Origin: a candidate division NC10 bacterium CSP1-5
GTDB lineage: Bacteria > Methylomirabilota > Methylomirabilia > Methylomirabilales > CSP1-5
Assembly (NCBI GenBank): GCA_001443495.1
Contig: LDXR01000009.1
Span: 58,022-122,021 of the forward strand
Direction of reading: 5' to 3'
Length of the DNA: 64,000 bases
A program made the position numbers and the translations under genes. This document shows positions 7,712-33,300 of the stretch, in pieces (positions within the stretch are counted from its first letter, which is position 1; the number at the start of each line of letters is the position of its first letter). The notes under the pieces are model-generated. The model was given only the letters and a program-made list of their open reading frames with translations, was not told the DNA's origin and did no database searches.

Positions 7712-8117
7712 ACAACCCTCATCCTTACGTCGATGTGAGGCCTGGCAGGCCCCCCCCCGAATCCGCCGCACGGATGACCTGCCCTGACGCTCCGGATCGA
7801 CTTTTCTCTTGTAGCACCTCAGGGTACTTGCGGGCAACTCCAAAGTCGCCTCGCATCGACGCCAGGACATTCTTTCCCATTCGTGGGTGTCATTTCAGGG
7901 GGATTTGTATAGCTGAACTGTAACTTTATATAGTATAGTGTTAATAGCTGTTATTATTGACATAAATAAACATGCAATAACGAGGGTTGACGAGACCTGT
8001 GTTCGATGGCAAGACCAGGCTTGCTGGCTTCGTTGGCCTGCTCCTGGGTTGGAACGGGCCTGGCCGGCTGGGTGACCATTTCGGAGGCAGGGAGGCTGGA
8101 GGGGATTGGCAAATAGC
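7712..8117. other. 406-base non-coding stretch between TPR gene and tRNA-Arg
   Basis: No convincing gene is seen. The stretch 7915-7985 is strikingly AT-rich against a roughly 60 percent GC background and contains TATA-like words on both strands (for example TATACTATATAAAG on the minus strand), so it may hold the promoter of the downstream TPR gene. I could not fit a clean -35/-10 pair. The bases next to the tRNA 3' end show no clear duplicate of the tRNA tail that would mark an integration site. Confidence 0.5.
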
Positions 8118-19253: not shown

Positions 19254-20132
19254 TCATCGCTCCAGGACCTTGACGAAAAAGGCCAACACCTTCTCCTTAT
19301 ACTTCTTCGGGTCCCGCGCATAGGTTCCACCGTGATCGGCCCCCTCGATGATCCACAGTTCGGCTCGATCAGGGGGCGCGGCCTCATAGAGAAGACGGGC
19401 GTGCTCGACGGGAATCTGCCGGTCACCCGCTCCATGAATAATCAGGATCGGCACTTGAGCCTTGGCAATGGCCCGGCGGGGATCGATGGTCCCGATATCG
19501 ACCCCCAGCAGGGAGGCGTAGGATCGAATGAGCCACACGATCGGGGTCTTGGTAACGCCGGGGAGGTATCCGTAGACCGCCTCCACCATCCGCTCCATGT
19601 CGGCGAAGGAGGAATCCGCCACGATCCCCTTGAGATCGGCGTCCTCGACCAGAAGGAGCACTGCTGCTCCAAGGGAAAAGCCGAGCCCGCCGATGTTCGT
19701 CTCCCCGCGCCCCCTGAGATAGCGGATGGCAGCCCTCAGATCCTCCTGCTCCCGGTATCCGACCGTGGTTACGCTTCCCTCGCTCTGGCCGAAGGACCGA
19801 AAGTCAAACAGGAAGAGGTTGTAGCGTGGGTGGAGGAACTGGGCGAGAGGCAGCAAATCCCCCTTGTCGGCAGGATAGCCGTGGGTCACCAGGATGGTCC
19901 CCTTCGCTCTCCGGGAGGAAGGGATGTACCAGCCTCGAAGCGTCAAACCGTCTGTGGTGCGGAAGCGCACGTCGTCGTACGGGAGCTTGAGATGCAAGGG
20001 GGTGATGTTGGAGTGGAACTTGAGAGGAAAAATGGCCAGCACGAATTGGACCGTGGCGAAGAGGAAAATCCCGACGGCAAGGGAGACGACAGCCCTGACC
20101 AGTAGAGAAAGGGGCGAACGCTTCACGCCCAT
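19254..20132 (-). CDS. Membrane-anchored alpha/beta hydrolase
   Basis: An N-terminal membrane segment (about residues 10-33) is followed by an alpha/beta-hydrolase fold. The nucleophile Ser lies in GFSLGA, a His-Gly oxyanion segment is seen in VTHGYPADKGD, the acid is likely the Asp in IHGAGDRQIP, and the base is likely the His in EGADHGGTY. It resembles the family annotated as dienelactone-hydrolase or peptidase-like, but the substrate is unknown. It lies between cbbY and dppB on the same strand, 84 bases after cbbY, and may be the last gene of the carbon-fixation operon or an independent gene. Confidence 0.8.
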   Translation of the reverse strand: MGVKRSPLSLLVRAVVSLAVGIFLFATVQFVLAIFPLKFHSNITPLHLKLPYDDVRFRTTDGLTLRGWYIPSSRRAKGTILVTHGYPADKGDLLPLAQFLHPRYNLFLFDFRSFGQSEGSVTTVGYREQEDLRAAIRYLRGRGETNIGGLGFSLGAAVLLLVEDADLKGIVADSSFADMERMVEAVYGYLPGVTKTPIVWLIRSYASLLGVDIGTIDPRRAIAKAQVPILIIHGAGDRQIPVEHARLLYEAAPPDRAELWIIEGADHGGTYARDPKKYKEKVLAFFVKVLER

Positions 20133-20216
20133 TCCGCGGGTATGTGGGTCCGGATCCGGTCCGCCGTCTCCCCGCTCCGCTCCGGGTCCCCTGTGACGAC
20201 CTTCCGATCGAATCCC

Positions 20217-21062
20217 CTACCCTCCCCCGTCCAACGCGGAATCGCATCCGCCACCCTCATGGCCGCGGCGTGCAGACGCTGTGCTTCGATGGTGGAGCCG
20301 ATGGAGCGTCACGGTATCGATCACCTCCCCCACCTCGATGCCGTGAGGGTTATACAGGACTCGGCTCCGCAGACCAGGATCACCCAGCTCCTCAACCACA
20401 AAGTCAGCCTGGCTAAAGTCGTGGTTCCGGCAATAGCTACTGGGGATGATCACACAGGAGAGCGCGGCCCCCTTGGCGGCCTCTAGGCCGTTCTGGGAAT
20501 CCTCGATGGCAAGGGCCTGCTCAGGGCGGATGGCGAGCTTCGAGAGGGTAACCCGGTACGCCTCGGGGTCCGGCTTTTTCCGGGCGACGTCTTCACCCGT
20601 GATGACGAGGGTGATCCGCGAGAAGCGATCCCGCCCAAGGAGTTTCTCAAGCAAAGGCTCGACCCACGCCCGGCTTCCGGTCGTCGCGACCGCCGTGGTC
20701 ACACCCTCTCGATGCAGCTCATCGAAGAGGCGGAGGATACCGGGCCGCGGGAAGATGTCACACCCCTCGACGAGTTGACGGAAGGCTTCATTCTTGACCC
20801 GATGAAGCTCTGGCACCAGCCGATCCCGCTCGGCCGCGAGCAGCGGCCGGTACCGATCGAAGTAGAAGCGGAGGCGCTCCTTTCCGCCGGCCACCCAGAG
20901 GAGTTCCCCGTAGAGGCCCTCTCCCCATCGGTCAGGCAGGCCCAACCGCTCGAAGGCGTGATTGAAGGCCACCCGATGACCATCACGCTCCGTCTCGGCC
21001 AGCGTGCCGTCCACATCGAAGATAGCTACCTGAAGCCTGGACATCTTCACGGCGGAAGTCAC
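20217..21062 (-). CDS. cbbY: CbbY-type HAD sugar-bisphosphate phosphatase
   Basis: CbbY dephosphorylates xylulose-1,5-bisphosphate, a side product of RuBisCO that inhibits the enzyme. Seen: HAD motif I FDVDGTLAETE, motif II ATTGSRAWVEP, motif III Lys in ARKKPDPEAY and motif IV IEDSQNGLEAAKG. The start FDVDGTLAETERDGHRVAFN is characteristic of CbbY. It lies 33 bases after prk in the cbb operon. The GTG at 21062 or the ATG at 21044 could be the start. Both have weak ribosome sites. The last ~35 residues are Gly/Arg-rich and not conserved, so the 3' end may have drifted. Confidence 0.88.
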   Translation of the reverse strand: MTSAVKMSRLQVAIFDVDGTLAETERDGHRVAFNHAFERLGLPDRWGEGLYGELLWVAGGKERLRFYFDRYRPLLAAERDRLVPELHRVKNEAFRQLVEGCDIFPRPGILRLFDELHREGVTTAVATTGSRAWVEPLLEKLLGRDRFSRITLVITGEDVARKKPDPEAYRVTLSKLAIRPEQALAIEDSQNGLEAAKGAALSCVIIPSSYCRNHDFSQADFVVEELGDPGLRSRVLYNPHGIEVGEVIDTVTLHRLHHRSTASARRGHEGGGCDSALDGGG

Positions 21063-21095
21063 CAGGTGGCCACCATCGGCCCGAAGAGAATCCCG

Positions 21096-22013
21096 TCAGG
21101 CCCTTCCCCCGGGCCGGCGGCCGTGGCTCTCTGTCCCGAGGAGTGCCTGCCGCTCCTCCATCATCTTCTTGATGATCGGTTCGAGGATGATCTCCATGGC
21201 GAGGCCCATCTTGCCTCCCGGGACCACGATGCTATTCCGCCGCGACATGAACGAGTCACGGAGTATGGCCAGGATATAGGGGAAATTGATATGAAACTTG
21301 CCAGGGTCCCGGAACCGGATCACCGCAAAGCTCTCATCGGGTGTCGGGATGTCACGAGCAATGAACGGATTCGACGTGTCCACGGTAGGCACGCGCTGGA
21401 AATTGATATCCGTTAGCGAAAACTGGGGTATGATATAGCGCACATAGTCGGGCATGCGCCGGAGGATGGTTTCGGTGACGTCCTCCGGGGTGTAGCCTCG
21501 CTGTGCGGTGTCGCGATGGATCTTCTGGATCCACTCGAGATTGACGATGGGGACCACGCCAACCAGCAGATCTACATACTGCGCCACATTGACCTTCTCG
21601 GTGACCACTGCCCCATGCAGCCCTTCATAAAACAGGAGATCCGTGTCCTTTGGGAGGTCCTCCCAGGGGGTGAAGGTCCCTGGTTCCTGGCCGAAGGGCT
21701 CTGCCTCCTCCCAGTTGTGCGGGTAGTAACGACGCTGCCCCGTCCCCGTTTGGCTATACTGCCGGAAAAGTTCCTCCAGTTCCTCGAAGAGGTTTGCCTC
21801 CGCACCGAAATGGCTCAGGGTCCGCCCCTCACCCTGCGCCTTTGCCACAACTTCCCGCATCTCGGCCCGGTTGTACCGGTGGAAGCTGTCCCCCTCGATG
21901 AATGCAGCGTTCACCTGGAGTCTGTAGAAGATATGTTCAAACGCGACCTTCACTGTTGTGGTGCCAGCACCGGACGAACCGGTAACGGCGATGATTGGAT
22001 ACCTCTTCGACAT
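21096..22013 (-). CDS. prk: Phosphoribulokinase
   Basis: This enzyme phosphorylates ribulose-5-phosphate to the RuBisCO substrate RuBP. It is the class I (proteobacterial, octameric) form: the P-loop AVTGSSGAGTTTVK at residue 9, the signature blocks EGDSFHRYNR and HFGAEANL, and YEGLHGA with the catalytic segment are present. At 305 residues it is of normal length. AAGGAG precedes the ATG. It lies between cbbX and cbbY. Confidence 0.96.
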   Translation of the reverse strand: MSKRYPIIAVTGSSGAGTTTVKVAFEHIFYRLQVNAAFIEGDSFHRYNRAEMREVVAKAQGEGRTLSHFGAEANLFEELEELFRQYSQTGTGQRRYYPHNWEEAEPFGQEPGTFTPWEDLPKDTDLLFYEGLHGAVVTEKVNVAQYVDLLVGVVPIVNLEWIQKIHRDTAQRGYTPEDVTETILRRMPDYVRYIIPQFSLTDINFQRVPTVDTSNPFIARDIPTPDESFAVIRFRDPGKFHINFPYILAILRDSFMSRRNSIVVPGGKMGLAMEIILEPIIKKMMEERQALLGTESHGRRPGGRA

Positions 22014-22086
22014 GTGTCACTCCTTCCCTTCGATTACTGGCGGAGACATTCTCGGCCTCGAAGCCTGAGGGGTCGCCTTCGAGGCG

Positions 22087-23028
22087 CTATCGGGCCAGGT
22101 CCTCCTCCCCTCCGGTCGACCCCTTGGGGGCGTCCAGATCAGGAACCTCGGCGAAGACCCTGCTCTTCAGGATGTCGGACGCGTCGATGTGCGCCAACTC
22201 CTCTCTGGTCAGCATTCCTCCATGGGTATAGAGGCGGTTGGCCTGCCGGAGCTTGATCCGGTCGATGGCGTTTCGGACACTTCTCGCGTTGGCGAATTCC
22301 GGCAACGCCATCCGCCGTTTGAGATAGTCACGGAACGTCTCCCGCGCCGCCTCGTCGAAATGGTACTTCTGCTGGGCCACCATCATCTCCCCGATTTGCA
22401 TCAGCTCTTCGATGGTAAAGTCCGGGAAGTCGAGATGGTGAGCCACACGGGAGCGCATGCCGGGGTTGAAGCTGAAGAATGTGTCCATTCGGTCCTTGTA
22501 CCCGGCCAGGACCACCACAAGATCTTCACGCTGATTCTCCATCACCTGGAGCAGGATCTCGATGGCTTCCTGCCCATAGTCCCGCTCGTTCTCCGGGCGA
22601 TAGAGGTAGTACGCCTCATCAATGAAGAGCACGCCTCCCATCGCCTTCTTGAGCACCTCCTTGGTCTTCGGGGCGGTGTGCCCCACGTACTGGCCGACCA
22701 AATCGTCCCGTGTCGCAGTGATCAGGTGATCCCTGCGAATGTAGCCCAGGCGATGGAGGATCTGGGCCATCCGCATCGCCACCGTGGTCTTTCCGGTGCC
22801 GGAGCGGCCCGTGAAGCACATGTGGAGAGCGGGACGTTCTGCCCCCAAGCCCACCTCCCGTCGGAGGCGGTCGACGAGGAGGAACGCGGCAATCTCGCGG
22901 ATCCGGGTCTTGACCGACTGGAGGCCCACCAGCTCGCGGTCCAGACCATCTAGCACCTCCTGGACGTGGGAGTCCTTGAAGGCCTGAGTGACGTCGAGCG
23001 CGTCTTTGTCGGTCTGCGCCTCACCCAT
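22087..23028 (-). CDS. cbbX: CbbX, red-type RuBisCO activase
   Basis: This AAA+ ATPase removes inhibitory sugar phosphates from red-type RuBisCO by pulling on the C-terminus of the large subunit. Seen: Walker [13 protein letters not shown], pore-loop segment [13 protein letters not shown], Walker [14 protein letters not shown], and sensor/arginine-finger region [11 protein letters not shown]. The length is 313 residues from the ATG at 23028. The frame extends to 23238, but that would overlap cbbS out of frame. CbbX occurs with form IC/ID enzymes, which supports the RuBisCO class assigned below. Confidence 0.95.
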
Positions 23029-23057
23029 GGTGAAACTCAATCCCGTCAAACTGATCC

Positions 23058-23507
23058 TTACCGACCGACATCTGGGCCACCGCCGTCTGTCGAGTAGCGG
23101 TCGCCTTCGGGCCTGTCCGTGGCATAACTGTGCACGGTGTACCGGATATTCCGGCCCCCTGCCTCCTGCCGCGCAAGACCGAAGCCGGGTTCGTGCTTCG
23201 GCCGGTGGACGATGAAGGAGAGCCTGATCGTCTCCCACCCTCTGGTACTGTCGAGGGCGTTCACCTTGATGTAGTGGTTCGGGTAGGCCTTACGGCAGGT
23301 GGTCACCTCTTGCATGACTGCCGCCGGGTCTTTCAGGTCGAACATCGGCGCCCCCCACATCTCCCAGTACGTGTTGCGGGGGTGTGGGTCATCCGTGAAC
23401 TCGACGCTCACGGCCCAGCCTTGATTCAAACAATACTCCACCTGCTTGCTGATCTGCTCGTCAGTTAGATCGGGCAGGAACGAGAAGGTCCCTTGGGTGA
23501 TTCTCAT
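23058..23507 (-). CDS. cbbS: RuBisCO small subunit (form IC type)
   Basis: This is the small subunit of the L8S8 RuBisCO. The beginning [19 protein letters not shown], the core [14 protein letters not shown] and the C-terminal extension [12 protein letters not shown] are typical of red-type form IC small subunits, whose C-terminal hairpin fills the central channel. The protein is 149 residues long. AGGAGG precedes the ATG. It is located 20 bases after cbbL. Confidence 0.96.
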
Positions 23508-23527
23508 GGCTTTTCCTCCTACACAAC

Positions 23528-25003
<1,476 letters not shown>

Positions 25004-25056
25004 TCACTCGGGGACGAATCGCCTGCCACGCTTTCCCGGTAAGATCGGCTCCGGCC

Positions 25057-25395
25057 TCAGGTGTCCCCTGCAGCCTCCTTCACGCCACTCTGGACAAGGC
25101 CTAGACAACTTCGGCGCAGTGCTGGGATGTTCTCGGCTACCGAGGCCTTTTTGTTGAACACTGCGGAGCCGGCCACAAGGACCTCGGCGCCCGCCGCGAC
25201 CACGGAGGGGGCCGTCTGGGCGTTGATCCCTCCGTCTACCTCGACCTCGCAGCCTGCTCCCTGTTCTCGCAGCATCTGGCCCAGCGCGTGCAGCTTGCGG
25301 ATGGTATTGGGGATAAGCCTCGCACAGTCCGCCGAAAGGATCGACGGGGCGATCTTCACCGGGAACCTCTCTGCCCCACCCCGCGCCTGCGTCAC
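25057..25395 (-). pseudogene. rpe: Ribulose-phosphate 3-epimerase remnant with large in-frame deletion
   Basis: Rpe interconverts ribulose- and xylulose-5-phosphate in RuBP regeneration. The frame keeps the start VKIAPSILSADCARL and then jumps straight to IPNTIRKLHALGQML, GCEVEVDGGINAQTAPSV and VLVAGSAVF, which belong to the last third of the enzyme. About 120-130 central residues are gone, including the HFDVMD and DVHLM metal-ligand and catalytic segments. The late Asp (DGG) remains. The junction is near 25316-25320 and keeps the frame. A GTG at 25359 with GAGAGG upstream is the likely ancestral start. It is either a decayed gene or an assembly deletion. The protein cannot be an active epimerase. 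Confidence 0.85.
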
Positions 25396-25398
25396 CGG

Positions 25399-26412
25399 TT
25401 ACACCACCCCCTCGTACCGCATCCCAGCGAGCTTGCGCAACCGGCCGAAATTGTGCCGTGCCTCGACCCAGCGCACAGTCCCCGAAACCGAACGCATGGC
25501 CAAGGAATGGGTCTGGGCTCCTCCCGGAAAATATCGGACGCCCCGCACAACCTCTCCATCGGTGATCCCGGTGACGGCCACAAAGACGTTTTCTCCCGAG
25601 CAGAGGTCATCGAGTGCGAGAACTTTGTCCAGGTCATGACCCTCGGCGTGAGCCTTCTCGCGGTCTTTCTCGTCCTTTGCCCAGAGCCGTCCCTGCATGT
25701 CGCCTCCCAGGCACTTGACAGTACAGGCAGTGATCACCCCCTCGGGCGTCCCCCCGATCCCCATGAGGACATCAACCCCTCTGTCCTGCACCAACGTAGC
25801 GAGGAGGCCCGCCGTGACATCCCCGTCGGTGATGAGCCTGAGTTTTGCTCCAATCTTTTCGACATCCTCGACCATCGCCGCGTTGCGCGGACGGTCAAGG
25901 GCAATCACGGTGAGCTCCCGGACCTCACGCCCTTTGGCCTTCGCGATGGCATGAAGGTTTTCACGCACGGGGGCGTTGAGGTCGATCACGCCCCGCGCCT
26001 GGGGACCGACTACGATCTTGTCCATGTAGGCGAGGTGGCTGGTAAAGAGGCTCCCTCGATCGGCCAGCGCCACGACCGAGACTGAGCCTGGCCTCCCCAC
26101 CGACAGCATGGTGGTCCCATCAATGGGGTCCACGGCGATGTCCACGAGAGGCGGAGACCCGGTGCCGATCCGTTCGCCGATGTACAACATCGGCGCCTCG
26201 TCTTTCTCTCCTTCGCCGATGACCACCTCTCCATTCATGGGAACGGTGCTCAGGGCGAACCGCATCGCGTCCACCGCCGCCTGGTCCGCCGCTTCCTTCT
26301 TCCGGCGGCCGGCGAACGGGGCGGCCGCCATGGCCGCGGCCTCGGTTACCCGCACCAGATCCATGGCTAGGTTGCGGTCCATCGGCTTCGTTTCTTCCCC
26401 GCGCTTCACCAT
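25399..26412 (-). CDS. glpX: Fructose-1,6-bisphosphatase class II
   Basis: This Calvin-cycle and gluconeogenic phosphatase forms fructose-6-phosphate, and class II members in autotrophs may also act on sedoheptulose-1,7-bisphosphate. Seen: metal site VDPIDGTTM, the GEGEKDEAPMLYIGE block and LITDGDVTAG, all GlpX signatures. The ATG at 26412, preceded by AAAGGGAG at 11 bases, is preferred. A GTG at 26424 would overlap the tkt stop. Length is about 337 residues. It lies between tkt and the rpe remnant. Confidence 0.93.
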   Translation of the reverse strand: MVKRGEETKPMDRNLAMDLVRVTEAAAMAAAPFAGRRKKEAADQAAVDAMRFALSTVPMNGEVVIGEGEKDEAPMLYIGERIGTGSPPLVDIAVDPIDGTTMLSVGRPGSVSVVALADRGSLFTSHLAYMDKIVVGPQARGVIDLNAPVRENLHAIAKAKGREVRELTVIALDRPRNAAMVEDVEKIGAKLRLITDGDVTAGLLATLVQDRGVDVLMGIGGTPEGVITACTVKCLGGDMQGRLWAKDEKDREKAHAEGHDLDKVLALDDLCSGENVFVAVTGITDGEVVRGVRYFPGGAQTHSLAMRSVSGTVRWVEARHNFGRLRKLAGMRYEGVV

Positions 26413-26420
26413 CCTCGATC

Positions 26421-28502
26421 TCACTCCCTTTCGATCCTTCCCTTTCCGTGAGCTGGACGCCCCAGGACCCGAAGTGCAGCCGCCGCCACCGCCTCGGCGG
26501 TGAGCCCAAGATTCTCAAAGATGGCCTTATAGGGGGCCGAGGCGCCAAAGCGATCCAGCCCCACGACCGTTCCGTAAGCTCCGACGTAGCGTTCCCAACC
26601 GAAGGTAGCTGCCGCTTCGACCGCGACCCGGGCCCCCACCCCCGGAGGCAGCACCGCCTCCTGGTATTCAGCCGGTTGACGCTCGAACAGATCGGTGGAG
26701 GGCAGGCTCACCACGCGCGCCGCCACCCCTTGCTGGGCCAGGAGCTTCTGGGCAGCGAGAGCGAGGTGGACCTCGGAGCCAGTCCCGATAAGGATAACAT
26801 CAGGCCTCTCCACATCAGCCAAGACGTAACCCCCTTTGGCCACCCCTCTTGCCGGGGCAAGGACCGAGCGGTCCACCACCGGCACCGCCTGGCGGGTGAG
26901 CAGCAAAGCCGTCGGCCCGTCCCGGCGAGAGAGCGCGACGCGCCAGGCCTCGACGGTCTCCGTGGCATCGGCGGGGCGAATGGCGACCAGGTTGGGCATG
27001 GCCCGCAGGCTGGCCAGGTGCTCCACCGGCTGGTGTGTCGGTCCATCTTCCCCGAGACCTATGCTATCGTGGGTGAAGACAAAGATCACCGGCTGGTGCA
27101 TCAGCGCCGCCAGCCGAATGGAGGGGCGCATGTAGTCACTGAAGATCAGAAAGGTCCCCCCGTACGGGAAGAGACCTCCGTGCAGCGCCAGGCCATTGAG
27201 AATGCCGCCCATGGCGTGCTCCCGCACGCCGAAGTGGATGTAGCGCCCGGAGAAGTCCCCGCGCTTTACCGCCTCCTCCCCTTTGGGGAGGGTATTGTTG
27301 GAGCCGGTGAGATCACCCGAACCGCCGATCAGTGTCGGGATCCGCGGGGCCAGGGTGTCGAGCAGCTTCCCGGAGGCCGCACGAGTTGCCAGCGGCTTGT
27401 CCGTCGGAAAGTGTGGAAGATCCGTGTCCCACCCTTCGGGGAGCTCGCGGGCCAGGGCCGCTCGGAACTGGGCGGCCAGCTCGGGATGCTCCTGCGCGTA
27501 GCGGGCCAGGGTCTTTCTCCACTCGTCCTCTTGTACCGCCCCCTTGTTCGCGCATTCGCGAAACCGAGCCACGACCTCCTCAGGGATGTAAAACTTCGCC
27601 TCGGGGGACCAGCCATAACGCTCCTTGGTGAGGCGGACCTCCTCCTCTCCGAGGGGCTCCCCATGAGCTTTGGCCGTATCTTGGCGATTCGGGCTTCCGT
27701 AGCCGATGTGCGTGCGCGCCACGATCAGGGAGGGCCGCGTCGTCTCTGCCCTGGCGGCGTGCAGGGCTGCCTCCACAGCAACCATATCGTGGCCATCGAT
27801 CGCCTGCACGTGCCATCCGTAAGCCACAAACCGCGCAGCCACATCTTCGGTGAAGGCAAGCGAGGTCGGCCCGTCGATGGAAATGCCATTGGCATCATAT
27901 AGGTAAATTAGCTTTCCCAAACCGAGGTGGCCCGCCAATGACGCGGCCTCGTGGGAAATCCCCTCCATGTGGTCGCCGTCACTCACGATGGCGTAGGTGT
28001 AATGATCGACCACCGCGTAGCCGGGGCGATTGAACCGGGCGGCCAGGTGTGCCTCGGCCAGCGCCATCCCGACCCCATTCGCAAAGCCCTGGCCCAGGGG
28101 GCCGGTCGTCGTCTCTACGCCCGGCGTCAGGCCGTACTCGGAATGGCCAGGTGTCCGGCTCCCCCACTGGCGAAAGCGTTTGATCTCTTCGAGCGAGAGG
28201 TCGTAGCCCGACAAGTACAGCAGGCCGTACAGGAGCATACAGCCGTGCCCAGCCGACAGGACAAACCGGTCACGATCCGGCCAGGCCGGGTTGACCGGGT
28301 TGTGCTTGAGGAATCGCGTGCATAGGACATAAGCCATGTCGGCCGCACCCATAGGGAGACCCGGGTGACCGGAGTTGGCCTGCTGGACCGCGTCCATGGC
28401 CAGGGTGCGAAGGGTCGTCACGGAGAGGCGGTCCAGCTCGTCGTAGCGGCCCGCAGGGGGTAGCTCGAAACGGACGGCCCCGGCCTTGGTCGGAGTCTTC
28501 AT
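26421..28502 (-). CDS. tkt: Transketolase
   Basis: This is a thiamine-diphosphate enzyme that moves two-carbon units in RuBP regeneration. Seen: the N-terminal [13 protein letters not shown], the ThDP/Mg site [20 protein letters not shown] with DANGISIDG, and the C-terminal half with [15 protein letters not shown], which contains the substrate-phosphate and cofactor-activating residues. At 693 residues it is a full-length enzyme. It lies 42 bases after fba in the carbon-fixation operon. Confidence 0.97.
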
Positions 28503-28544
28503 CGATTCCTCCCCTTTGTGACGCGCCTGCAGATTTCATCCACG

Positions 28545-29570
28545 CTACGCCGCCTCTTTTTCCATTTCTTCACTGTAGCTACCCACTGACGCAGCCCCGT
28601 TGAGCTTGGCTCGATGGCACAGGAGCTTCTGTGCCGCGGCCACATTCTCGCTCTTGCCCAACCAGGTCTCCATGGCCGACTGCTGAAGGGCTCGGGCATA
28701 GGAGAAGGTCAACGGCCACGGCAAACCCCTGTGCATCGCGTTCATGGCGTTGAGATGCGCGGTAGCCAGTTCACTGCTCTGGCCACCGGACAGGAACGCC
28801 ACACCGGCGAGATTTTCGGGGAGGTTCTTGAGCAGGCATTCCACGGTCTTCTCTGCCACTTCCTTGACGCGAGCCTGCTTGGGACAGTCGAGTCCGGAGA
28901 TGACCATGCTTGACTTGAGGACCATCCCTTCCATGAGGACGCGCTGCTCCTTGAGTTCGGCGAACACCGCCCGGAGCGTCTCGGAAGTCACTTCGTGGCA
29001 GCGGTCGATCGTGTGATCGCCGTCGATCAATACCTCGGGCTCGACAATCGGTACGATGCCGGCCTCCTGGCATAACGCGGCGTAGCGCGCCAGGGCATGG
29101 GCGTTCGCGTGAATACAACCCCTGCTCGGGATCTGGTTTCCGATGGTAATGACAGCACGCCACTTGGCGAATCGTGCGCCCATGCCTTTGTACTCCGTCA
29201 GGCGTTCACGCAGGCCGTCCAAACCTTCGGTGACCTTTTCTCCGGGAAAGCCAGCCAAATCCTTGGCCCCCGTGTCCACCTTGATGCCCGGTATGATGCC
29301 GCACTGCCCCATGTATGGCGGGAAGGGAATGCCGTCTGAGGTCGATTGCCGGATTGTTTCGTCGTACAGGATCGCGCCGCTGATGTAATCGGCGAGCCGA
29401 GGTGTGGTGAGTAGCAATGCACGCCAGGCGCGACGATTGTCTACAGTATTTTCAATGCCCAGTTTCTTGAATCGTCTGCCGCAAGTAGGGTTGCTCTCGT
29501 CCATCGCCAGGATACCCTTTCCCTTGGCGACCATTGCTTTGGCTGTGGCTTGAAGTTCTTGGGAAGTCAT
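28545..29570 (-). CDS. fba: Fructose-bisphosphate aldolase class I
   Basis: This is a Schiff-base aldolase that joins triose phosphates to fructose-1,6-bisphosphate (and possibly sedoheptulose bisphosphate). The N-terminus GKGILAMDESNPTCGRRF and the lysine-containing active-site segment EGMVLKSSMVISG identify the eukaryote-like class I family, as do FLSGGQSSE and LTFSYARALQ near the end. At 341 residues it is slightly shorter than the 350-360 of animal and plant enzymes. It is part of the cbb operon, 124 bases downstream of mtdB. Confidence 0.95.
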   Translation of the reverse strand: MTSQELQATAKAMVAKGKGILAMDESNPTCGRRFKKLGIENTVDNRRAWRALLLTTPRLADYISGAILYDETIRQSTSDGIPFPPYMGQCGIIPGIKVDTGAKDLAGFPGEKVTEGLDGLRERLTEYKGMGARFAKWRAVITIGNQIPSRGCIHANAHALARYAALCQEAGIVPIVEPEVLIDGDHTIDRCHEVTSETLRAVFAELKEQRVLMEGMVLKSSMVISGLDCPKQARVKEVAEKTVECLLKNLPENLAGVAFLSGGQSSELATAHLNAMNAMHRGLPWPLTFSYARALQQSAMETWLGKSENVAAAQKLLCHRAKLNGAASVGSYSEEMEKEAA

Positions 29571-29667
29571 TTCCTTACCCTCCTTACGCTCCGGGATCTA
29601 TACCCGAGCCGTCTGTTTCACTTGATGACTCCATTGTTCTTCGCTCTTCGGTCATGGCCGTGGTGGA

Positions 29668-29698
29668 CTGTGACCGCTTTGTCCCCCATGACGGTCAC
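29668..29698. repeat. 8-bp inverted repeat at the mtdB-fba junction
   Basis: TGTGACCG (29668-29675) and CGGTCACA (29691-29698) form a perfect inverted repeat with a 15-base spacer, overlapping the stop codon of mtdB. It has no T-run. It may be an RNA-processing or stabilising hairpin, or chance. The 124-base gap between mtdB and fba shows nothing else. Confidence 0.4.
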
Positions 29699-30618
29699 AC
29701 CAATATGCGCGCGGCGCCGAAGGCATGTGCGAAATCGAGGTAGACGGGCTTCTCTGTGTCCAGCATCGAATGGAGTAGGGCCTGTTGTGTCTTGACCTTG
29801 ACATTGCCGATGGTCAATGCGCCGATCCCCACCGCCCTTTTCGCGGCTGTTGCGTATTTCAATGGAGCGCCATTGTCCTTTGGATCGATGCCCTCAATGC
29901 CGGCGGGCGGAACGGTGTTGACATCGGCAGCGACCTTCAGTTCCTGCGCGTCCTCGAGCACGGAGGCGTCAAGGACCAGTACTCCCGCCTTGGCGGTGGA
30001 GATAATGACGTCCGCTTTGGAAACCAGCCGCGCTTTATCCGCGTCGGAGCACGCATACGTCCCGCGTATCGACGTGCCGCAACGCCGGTTGTATTCCTTG
30101 GCCTTCGCCTCGGCCACCTCCACGGAGAGGTAATCGACAATGGCGGTCTTGGCTCCCGCCAGGGACGCGATCACGCCGGTGGCAATGCCGACGGGTCCGG
30201 TGCCGCCAAAGATAACCACCCGCGCCCCCGCCAACTCCATCTGGTGACGCTTTTTCAGTTGATGCTCCACGCAGGCGACGAGTCCGGCGGCGGTGGTAAA
30301 TGCGCCGCTGGGATCAGCGAAGATGGACACTTTAAAGGGTGGAACCATGGCCTTCTTGGCCGCCTCGATCGTGTCCATGGCGATACCAGCATCCCGTCCG
30401 CCAACGAAGATGGCGCTTCGTCTCACGTCCTTGGGATTGCGGCAGAAGATAATGTCCTGTACGAGGCTGGGCACTTGCTCCGGGGTCACGTTCGGGTACG
30501 GGACCACCGCCTGGAATCCCGCATCGTAGGCCATGGTAATGTCAAACGGGCTGACGTGAGCTAGGGGACTGAACATGTGCAGGATGCTCTGTACGTTTTT
30601 TGTGAATCGATCACTCAC
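29695..30618 (-). CDS. mtdB: NAD(P)-dependent methylene-tetrahydromethanopterin dehydrogenase
   Basis: This enzyme oxidises methylene-H4MPT to methenyl-H4MPT in the C1-oxidation pathway of methylotrophs. Seen: the N-terminal substrate-binding part with FDITMAYDAGFQAVVPYPNVTPE and SAIFVGGRDA, then a Rossmann fold with VVIFGGTGPVGIATGVIASLAGA, and the ending DVNTVPPAGIEGIDPKDNG, which are typical of the MtdA/MtdB family. MtdB is preferred, but MtdA-like specificity cannot be excluded. The GTG at 30618 overlaps the stop of the CBS gene as GTGA and follows GGGAGGGAAG. The longer frame to 30669 is rejected. It is the second gene of the carbon-fixation operon. Confidence 0.85.
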   Translation of the reverse strand: MSDRFTKNVQSILHMFSPLAHVSPFDITMAYDAGFQAVVPYPNVTPEQVPSLVQDIIFCRNPKDVRRSAIFVGGRDAGIAMDTIEAAKKAMVPPFKVSIFADPSGAFTTAAGLVACVEHQLKKRHQMELAGARVVIFGGTGPVGIATGVIASLAGAKTAIVDYLSVEVAEAKAKEYNRRCGTSIRGTYACSDADKARLVSKADVIISTAKAGVLVLDASVLEDAQELKVAADVNTVPPAGIEGIDPKDNGAPLKYATAAKRAVGIGALTIGNVKVKTQQALLHSMLDTEKPVYLDFAHAFGAARILV

Positions 30619-31109
30619 TTGGTCTTCCCTCCCCCACCGGCTTGCCGCCCTGCTCGCACCGGCGGCCACTGCTCGGTTTCGAAGATGGCCCGGTACACGT
30701 CCCCGTGACTCACAATCCCCACCAGCTTCTTGCCCACGATAATTGGGACGCGTCGGATCTTATGTAATGCCATGAGCGATGCGAGTCGCAGCGGTTCGGT
30801 CTCAGGCGTCGCGGTCACGATGTGCCGAGCCATGACGTCTCGGGCCCGGATCTTACTGATATCCCGTAACCCCTGCGAGGACGACCGACGAGGTTTCTTG
30901 CCTCGGAGGCCCGCGGCCCCGGGGTGCATCGCTTCGAGGATATCCCGTTCTGAGACAAGGCCCATCAGATGACCGCTCTTGTCGACCACTGGCACCCCGC
31001 TGATGCGATGGGTACAGAGCAGGGCGATGACGCGAGTCAGGGGATCGTCGGGTTTTACCGTGTAGACTGGGGTGGTCATGATGTCGCCCGCCGTAATGTC
31101 TCTCAGCAT
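30615..31109 (-). CDS. Tandem CBS-domain protein
   Basis: This 164-residue protein is made of two CBS motifs (about residues 8-65 and 90-148; TRVIALLCTHRISGVPVVDK and RLASLMALHKIRRVPIIVGK). Paired CBS domains bind adenine nucleotides and act as energy-state sensors, often by contact with a partner enzyme. It is the first gene of the carbon-fixation operon and is translationally coupled to mtdB through GTGA. It could therefore modulate MtdB, RuBisCO or PRK according to AMP/ATP levels, but the partner is inference. No other domain is attached. Confidence 0.88.
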   Translation of the reverse strand: MLRDITAGDIMTTPVYTVKPDDPLTRVIALLCTHRISGVPVVDKSGHLMGLVSERDILEAMHPGAAGLRGKKPRRSSSQGLRDISKIRARDVMARHIVTATPETEPLRLASLMALHKIRRVPIIVGKKLVGIVSHGDVYRAIFETEQWPPVRAGRQAGGGGKTK

Positions 31110-31218
31110 CAGGGTCCCGCACGCTGATGGGCCCTATATGGAGATCGTCGGGCCGGAATCTGCTGGCAGAGGCGACCGCCAGGCTCGACTTTGGGCCTGG
31201 ATCCACCGGTTGACATAG

Positions 31219-31247
31219 TAATTACATCCTGTTAATGTATTTGTCAA
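31219..31247 (-). promoter_or_regulatory. Promoter of the carbon-fixation operon
   Basis: On the minus strand, a perfect -35 TTGACA (31247-31242) is followed after 17 bases by a -10-like TAATTA (31224-31219). The predicted start near 31212 leaves a leader of about 100 bases before the CBS gene. Confidence 0.65.
31222..31239. promoter_or_regulatory. Candidate CbbR binding site
   Basis: TTA-N7-TTA (31222-31234) fits the TNA-N7-TNA half-site pattern described for CbbR, and TACAT-N7-ATGTA (31223-31239) is a perfect LysR-type interrupted palindrome. It sits between the -35 and -10 boxes of the operon promoter. Binding by the adjacent LysR protein is inferred. Confidence 0.55.
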
Positions 31248-31269
31248 ATTCATTATTTATATGGATACT
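31241..31269 (+). promoter_or_regulatory. Promoter of cbbR
   Basis: TTGTCA (31241-31246) and GATACT (31264-31269) are separated by 17 bases. The -35 box overlaps the -35 box of the operon promoter on the other strand, because TTGTCAA reads TTGACAA in reverse. A second candidate with TTGACA at 31210 and TAATGT at 31233 also has a 17-base spacer. Confidence 0.55.
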
Positions 31270-31322
31270 ATGCTTAAATGTAATCACACTTTCCGACTTC
31301 AGACCGCGCAAGATACCCCAAG

Positions 31323-32267
31323 ATGGCGGCAAATATGAATCTCGCGCACCTCAAGGCCTTTTTGGCTGTGGCGCAGCACCGGAGCTTCTCTCGGGCGGCA
31401 GAGAAGCTCTATCTTACGCAGCCTGCCGTTTCGAGGCAGATCCAGGCCCTCGAGGAGCTGCTCGGAGTGCGGCTGTTTGACCGTGTGGGCCGATCCATAC
31501 TCCTCACGGAGGTGGGGAATATTCTCCGTCACTATGCCCATATGGCCTTGCAAACCCTCGAGGAGGGGCGAGAGACCATTCATCAATTGCGCGGGCTCCA
31601 GAAAGGCCATCTGCGGATCAGCGCCGCGAGCACCATTGGGACGTACATGCTTCCCCAGCCCCTGGGCGAGTTTAAAGCCAGCTCTCCCAATATAGAAATC
31701 AGCCTCGCGATCACAAATAAGGCCCGCGTCGTCCAACAGGTCTTGAATCATGAAGTAGAACTCGGGTTTGTAGGACCGCCGGTAGAACCGGCCGAACTCG
31801 AAAGGGAAGAATATCTTTTGGATGAGCTTGTCCTCATTGTCGCCCCGACTCACCGGCTGGCGCACGAAGAGTCGGTCAAAGTCGCGGAGCTAGGGGAGGA
31901 GGTCTTCATCCTCCGCGAGCAGGGTTCGGGAACGCGAGAAATCATGGAGGAGGAGCTGGCCCGGGTTCGTGTCAGCCTGAAGAAGGCGATGGAGCTGGGG
32001 AGCACGGAGGCGATCAAACAGGCGGTGGCGGCGAACTTAGGTGTTTCAATTGTCTCGAAATTCGCCATCACCCTCGAGATCCTTCAGGGCCGTCTGGCGG
32101 TGGTCAAGCTCCCGGAACTCAATCTCCTCCGCCAGCTCTTCATGGTTTACCACCGGGGGCGAACGTTAAGCCCCGCTGCTCAGGAATTTTGTTCGCTGCT
32201 CAGGCGATCCAAGGCCGGGAAACCCAAGACCACCTCGCCTCAGGATATACGGGCTAAGCCGTCATAA
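31323..32267 (+). CDS. cbbR: LysR-type regulator CbbR
   Basis: This protein is the likely activator of the divergent carbon-fixation operon. The N-terminal winged helix-turn-helix occupies residues 7-66 (AFLAVAQHRSFSRAAEKLYLTQPAVSRQI), followed by the linker helix and a periplasmic-binding-like effector domain from about residue 95. CbbR proteins respond to metabolites such as RuBP, PEP or NADPH. The effector here is unknown. Position, divergent to the operon with a shared -35 region, is diagnostic. The ATG at 31323 or 31335 may be used. The 3' end overlaps ltaE tail to tail by 14 bases. Confidence 0.88.
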   Translation: MAANMNLAHLKAFLAVAQHRSFSRAAEKLYLTQPAVSRQIQALEELLGVRLFDRVGRSILLTEVGNILRHYAHMALQTLEEGRETIHQLRGLQKGHLRISAASTIGTYMLPQPLGEFKASSPNIEISLAITNKARVVQQVLNHEVELGFVGPPVEPAELEREEYLLDELVLIVAPTHRLAHEESVKVAELGEEVFILREQGSGTREIMEEELARVRVSLKKAMELGSTEAIKQAVAANLGVSIVSKFAITLEILQGRLAVVKLPELNLLRQLFMVYHRGRTLSPAAQEFCSLLRRSKAGKPKTTSPQDIRAKPS

Positions 32268-33300
32268 TCTGCCGCATGATCGTCAGGGCCTGCTCCACAT
32301 CCCTCCGCGATACATCCTTGTGGGTGAGACACCGAATCGACTCGGCGGAAATCTGATGGACGAGGACTCGCTCCTCCCGGAGTCTTCGGCTGAGCGTCGA
32401 GGCGGTGATCCTGGGGTGCCGGACAGCGAAAATCACGATGTTCGTCTGCACACGCTTCAGGTCGATCTCGATCCCCTCGATGCCACTGAGACCTTCGGCC
32501 AGGAGCCTGGCGTTGTCGTGATCTTCCCCTAATCGATTTACCATCGTCTCGAGGGCGACGATCCCGGCGGCGGCAATCACCCCTGCCTGGCGCATCCCAC
32601 CTCCAAGGAGCTTCCGAAGTCGCCTGGCGCGGTCTATGAAGGCATCGCGTCCAACCAGTAGGGAGCCAACGGGGGCGGCGAGGCTCTTGGACAGGCAGAA
32701 CATCACCGAATCGGTCCATCGGGCGAATGCCGGCGCCGGAACCCCCATCGCGACGGACGCGTTAAAGATCCGGGCCCCATCGAGATGGACGGCTACGCCG
32801 GCGTCATGAGCCAGCTCACAGATCTCCTGCAGGAGCGGCGGCGGATAGATCGTTCCCCCTCCCCGATTGGTCGGACTCTCGACGCAGATGAGAGCGGTGC
32901 GGGCGGTGTGGAGGCTTTCCGGCCGGATCGCCTTGCGGATTTCCTGGGGGTCGAGGATACCATGCGTTCCCCTCAGAGTCCGGGTCAGGATCCCGGCGAG
33001 AAAGGCCGGTCCCCCGACCTCAAAACTATAGATGTGGCAATTTTCTTCGAGGACAACCTCCTCTCCCCTGGCCGCATGAACCAACAGGGCAACCTGATTC
33101 CCCATGGTCCCGGAGGGCACGAAGAGAGCCGCCTCCTTGCCTAGGCGTTCTGCGGCCAGGGCCTCCAGGCGCCTGACGGTGGGATCCTCGCCATAGACAT
33201 CATCTCCCACCACCGCGCCTCGCATCGCGTCCCGCATCGCCTCGGTGGGAGTGGTCACGGTATCACTTCTGAGATCGATGAAACGCTCGCCCCGATCCAT
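32254..33300 (-). CDS. ltaE: Low-specificity L-threonine aldolase
   Basis: This PLP enzyme cleaves threonine or allo-threonine to glycine and acetaldehyde. Seen: N-terminal DLRSDTVTTPTEAMRDAM, the PLP-phosphate region FVPSGTMGNQVAL, the Asp-containing VHLDGARIFNA and the Schiff-base Lys in FCLSKSLAAPVGS. The ATG at 33300 overlaps the stop of the upstream gene as TGATG, which decides this start over the frame to 33324. Length is 348 residues. Confidence 0.93.
   Translation of the reverse strand: MDRGERFIDLRSDTVTTPTEAMRDAMRGAVVGDDVYGEDPTVRRLEALAAERLGKEAALFVPSGTMGNQVALLVHAARGEEVVLEENCHIYSFEVGGPAFLAGILTRTLRGTHGILDPQEIRKAIRPESLHTARTALICVESPTNRGGGTIYPPPLLQEICELAHDAGVAVHLDGARIFNASVAMGVPAPAFARWTDSVMFCLSKSLAAPVGSLLVGRDAFIDRARRLRKLLGGGMRQAGVIAAAGIVALETMVNRLGEDHDNARLLAEGLSGIEGIEIDLKRVQTNIVIFAVRHPRITASTLSRRLREERVLVHQISAESIRCLTHKDVSRRDVEQALTIMRQIMTA

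Follow-up and report, generated by a model that had tools for sequence, protein, structure and literature searches.

The ribulose-phosphate 3-epimerase gene (rpe) in the Calvin operon of the NC10 bacterium CSP1-5 has very probably been inactivated by an internal deletion of 393 bp and is now a young pseudogene, its step in the cycle being taken over by a second Rpe encoded on another contig (C12). The evidence comes from a stretch of 64,000 nucleotides, hereafter the window, which corresponds to positions 58022-122021 of contig C9 (G000:C9:58022-122021) in a draft genome of the metagenome-assembled (MAG) type, with 2.77 Mb in 40 contigs, 99.7% completeness and 2.9% contamination. The surviving piece of the gene is most likely the young pseudogene of a redundant gene, which makes the case largely one of ordinary biology with a modest lead for enzymology.

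An rpe remnant between glpX and rbcL

The remnant lies at 25057..25395 on the minus strand, where an uninterrupted reading frame of 112 codons runs from 25395 to 25057 with GTG as its first codon, and it was recognised from this frame, from profile matches and from its alignment to intact orthologues. Directly upstream is an intact gene for a GlpX-type fructose-1,6-/sedoheptulose-1,7-bisphosphatase (25399..26424, minus strand), an open reading frame with 96% identity to its orthologue in a relative of the same genus (G005), and directly downstream is the intact gene for the RuBisCO large subunit (23528..24997, minus strand; 95% identical to that of G005). In the remnant, PVKIAPSILSADCARL is joined directly to IPNTIRKL...EVEVDGGINA...VLVAGSAVF, so that an Rpe-like N-terminus (VKIAPSILSADCARL) is followed by the C-terminal third of the enzyme (IPNTIRKLHAL...EVEVDGGIN...VAGSAVF). 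This unbroken passage from one end of Rpe to the other had been described in the sequence-only reading, and the reading frame, the Pfam and TIGR01163 profiles and the alignments all confirm it. The match to PF00834 is a single piece that covers profile positions 144-198 of 198 only, and the N-terminal 27 residues come from a separate alignment to the intact sister gene. Against TIGR01163, the NCBIfam equivalog profile for Rpe, the E-value of 3e-17 lies far outside what chance would give, and the score of 62.6 bits fails the cut-off of 212.6 bits. Since a GAGAGG Shine-Dalgarno-like motif is found a few bases 5′ of a GTG at 25359, and is kept in G005 and in a second relative of the genus (G003), the true start of the remnant is likely this GTG, in which case 25359-25057 would be translated and the product, if any, would have about 100 amino acids and not 112.

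Both relatives carry the gene whole. The Calvin operon of G005 (MAG nzgw238, Methylomirabilota) has the order tkt-glpX-rpe-rbcL-rbcS-cbbX-prk in common with the window and matches its DNA at 95% identity as far as the junction; it differs in its intact rpe of 239 amino acids between glpX and rbcL (L033:10722-11441) and in an additional GAPDH gene after prk. The intact rpe of G003 (L034:6982-7665) also follows glpX, without RuBisCO nearby. Aligned to these two genes, the window shows a gap of exactly 393 bp (131 codons), in frame, where the sequence-only reading had guessed about 390 missing bases and had proposed alignment to the rpe of related genomes; its claim of an in-frame loss of the catalytic middle is thus borne out. 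The junction, GCGAGGC/TTATCCC at approximately 25316..25317 on the minus strand, falls inside the stretch singled out there for checking (25300-25340). An orthologue that is whole at the same site in relatives, with a key part lost in the window, is the pattern expected of a pseudogene.

The microhomology at the junction amounts to about one base, and the G005 gene, when checked for direct repeats, has none at the deletion ends, its sole direct repeat being one of 11 nt away from the end points. These features suggest that the 393 bp were lost through illegitimate end joining at the microhomology level, and that the frame of the resulting pseudogene, presumably without activity, stayed open by chance. 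A close parallel is offered by duplicated housekeeping genes that became pseudogenes through an internal in-frame deletion, with a redundant paralogue, a junction of the microhomology level and a frame kept by chance (about one case in three), and we noted no difference from them. An in-frame junction would also avoid premature termination upstream of rbcL, so that the remaining operon genes could still be transcribed and translated normally.

An artefact of assembly, in which the rpe of the real genome is whole and the 393 bp vanished during assembly or through the joining of strain variants, is an unlikely explanation, although the draft and contaminated nature of the genome, the whole copies of the sister species and the normal constraint on the remnant would all agree with it. 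The dN/dS of the remnant, 0.08-0.16 over only 77 codons, is not raised with respect to the 0.15 of the intact pair, which means that the loss is very recent or that the join is absent from the real genome. However, the collapse during assembly that the sequence-only reading had contemplated is disfavoured, its repeat-mediated form being rejected because the ends contain no repeat that could collapse. Nor do other contigs contain the missing segment: a search of the rest of the assembly found no copy, the second rpe being the only match at 67%, which also rejects a relocation of the segment. Identity to G005 drops from 95% on the left of the junction to 82% on its right, yet among 78-bp windows along the operon 14% are at or below 83% identity, so a drop of this size belongs to the mosaic variation of the operon and a chimeric join cannot be deduced from it. 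Moreover, next to the junction the F of the SADF motif is replaced by C, a change private to the remnant that fits drift after the loss. The comparison of window positions 19950-32975 with the G005 locus (L033) reveals this mosaic divergence as dS values from 0.09 (HAD gene) to 0.55 (CBS gene), a pattern that suggests recombination among relatives.

The young pseudogene is the reading that we prefer, and the capabilities of the fragment are in keeping with it. Catalysis by Rpe requires two His/Asp pairs for metal binding and three Met residues around the intermediate (PMC9978339). The remnant resembles Rpe/CbbE (EC 5.1.3.1; PF00834, TIGR01163) in its N-terminal PSILSAD, its C-terminal EVDGGIN and VAGSAVF and its position in the Calvin operon, but it differs from this family in the absence of the 131 codons, of three of the four metal ligands (His, Asp and His, with only the last Asp, in VDGG, kept) and of all three active-site Met, as well as in its score below the equivalog cut-off. 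On the established mechanism, an epimerase function of the remnant is excluded. Of the (beta/alpha)8 barrel, nothing is left but strand 1, helix 6 and units 7-8, and the AlphaFold model of the 112 residues falls short of a barrel, with two strands, a mean pLDDT of 46 and a pTM of 0.37. A short protein that is made and has retained a role, for example as a partner of the full-length Rpe or in binding or regulating another Calvin enzyme, would be in line with the open frame, the in-frame junction, the conserved start codon and ribosome-site-like motif and the low dN/dS of the C-terminal part. We regard it as extremely improbable, given that so few elements of the barrel persist and are predicted to be unfolded, that recency explains the low dN/dS equally well, and that the same shortened form occurs in no other genome searched. 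Contigs from genomes of other species, in a search that may omit the window's own genome, gave no case of the same fusion, G005 being the closest. The stable, working short subunit envisaged in the sequence-only reading, though conceivable, finds no backing in a fragment with no predicted fold and one metal ligand out of four.

A second, divergent Rpe

A profile search for a second full-length rpe, as the earlier reading had recommended, located one on contig C12 (G000:C12:77271-77861; L036:7266-7925), the sole full-length rpe of the genome. It sits in a standard context, downstream of fmt and between rsmB/PASTA and M23-peptidase genes. The encoded protein reaches 242 bits against PF00834 and 261 bits against TIGR01163, above the equivalog cut-off; it keeps the four metal ligands (H, D, H, D) and the Met residues, and its model is a full TIM barrel with TM values of 0.87-0.88 to solved Rpe structures. 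Compared with its G005 orthologue, the gene has a dN/dS of 0.106, indicative of purifying selection. Compensation of the loss by another rpe, one of the possibilities raised from the sequence, is therefore supported by this copy, and the conversion of xylulose-5-P to ribulose-5-P for the Calvin cycle would most likely proceed through the Rpe of the fmt-rsmB region.

This enzyme is nevertheless peculiar. Where APSILSAD is usual it has APAVLLVD: the near-universal Ser of PSIL, which we take to be an active-site residue, is here an Ala. Among 108 distinct full-length members of the family from the fetched loci, the replacement appears in five, all of them from this genus (L036, L159, L042, L043 and L044 are the chromosomal loci compared). 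The chromosomal Rpe of the genus forms a clade of its own (support 1.0) whose branch is long, at 0.47 substitutions per site, and two of the orthologues, in G001 and G006, have Gln in place of the first metal-ligand His. Literature searches on the PSIL serine yielded unrelated proteins and a general review (PMC9978339), which gives the metal ligands and in which no test of this Ser was seen.

The absence of the serine and the long branch make the activity of the C12 Rpe, as judged from its residues, not certain. Taken further, they would agree with a lineage devoid of a working Rpe, whose second copy has changed its function and whose Ru5P arises only through ribose-5-P isomerase; the change of the metal-ligand His in G001 and G006 and the presence of RpiB (ribose-5-P isomerase B) in the CSP1-5 genome point in the same direction. 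Such a scenario is very improbable, however, because the CSP1-5 copy preserves every metal ligand and Met, exceeds the equivalog cut-off and evolves under strong purifying selection, and because transketolase yields xylulose-5-P, so that closure of the Calvin cycle needs an epimerase. Within the reading that we favour, in which the C12 Rpe takes over the step, a plausible history is that the chromosomal rpe drifted while the canonical Calvin copy covered the reaction, and that the canonical copy was then lost in this species. More tentatively, and with some doubt on our part, the Calvin cycle of this autotroph may now run on an Rpe that is divergent, specific to the genus and altered in its active site, which has no Ser.

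Calvin operons without rpe and a probable loss of paralogues

The sequence-only reading had considered a Calvin operon without its epimerase to be unusual, a view that wider comparisons do not sustain. Genomes positive for the Calvin-Benson-Bassham (CBB) cycle have on average 1.03 PF00834 genes, one Rpe per genome being the norm, and rpe is a direct neighbour of Rubisco or Prk only occasionally, the median distance being five genes (PMC7895386). The surroundings of RuBisCO in five Methylomirabilis regions (G026, G027, G029, G024 and G011; at most 20 kb each) gave no match to rpe, and in G026, which we infer to be M. oxyfera, the two genes are far apart on one contig, at 155 kb and 1,870 kb.

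One of these assemblies, G011 (same order, Methylomirabilis family, 99% complete, 40 contigs), contains RuBisCO and no rpe at all. The 6-kb neighbourhood of the M. oxyfera rpe is also absent from it, with only dispersed repeat matches, and the absent region may be an unbinned contig. A dispersed intergenic repeat of about 46 bp with the core CCCCCTTTGCTAAAGGGGGG lies downstream of the M. oxyfera rpe (L157, approximately 7836-7882) and has about 43 matches in G011.

A second gene of the operon tells a similar story. At 21062..21096 on the minus strand, between prk and the gene for a HAD phosphatase, the Calvin-type GAPDH gene of G005 is absent, as seen from the comparison with G005 and from a census of GAPDH genes, which counts one in CSP1-5, two in G005 and two in M. 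oxyfera. The stop region of prk is also altered with respect to G005, a 2-bp difference that removes the TAG and makes Prk 13 residues longer. It thus appears that two paralogues of the operon have been pruned, rpe and the gene for GAPDH, although GAPDH may instead have been gained in G005.

For the biology of this bacterium, these observations speak of a pruning of Calvin-operon paralogues, in which the dedicated rpe has been lost, and apparently the dedicated gap as well, and the chromosomal copies remain. They also hold a warning for annotation, where an rpe listed as present in a Calvin operon may be no more than a dead fragment. The more useful lead, and one for enzymology, is the divergent Rpe that survives.
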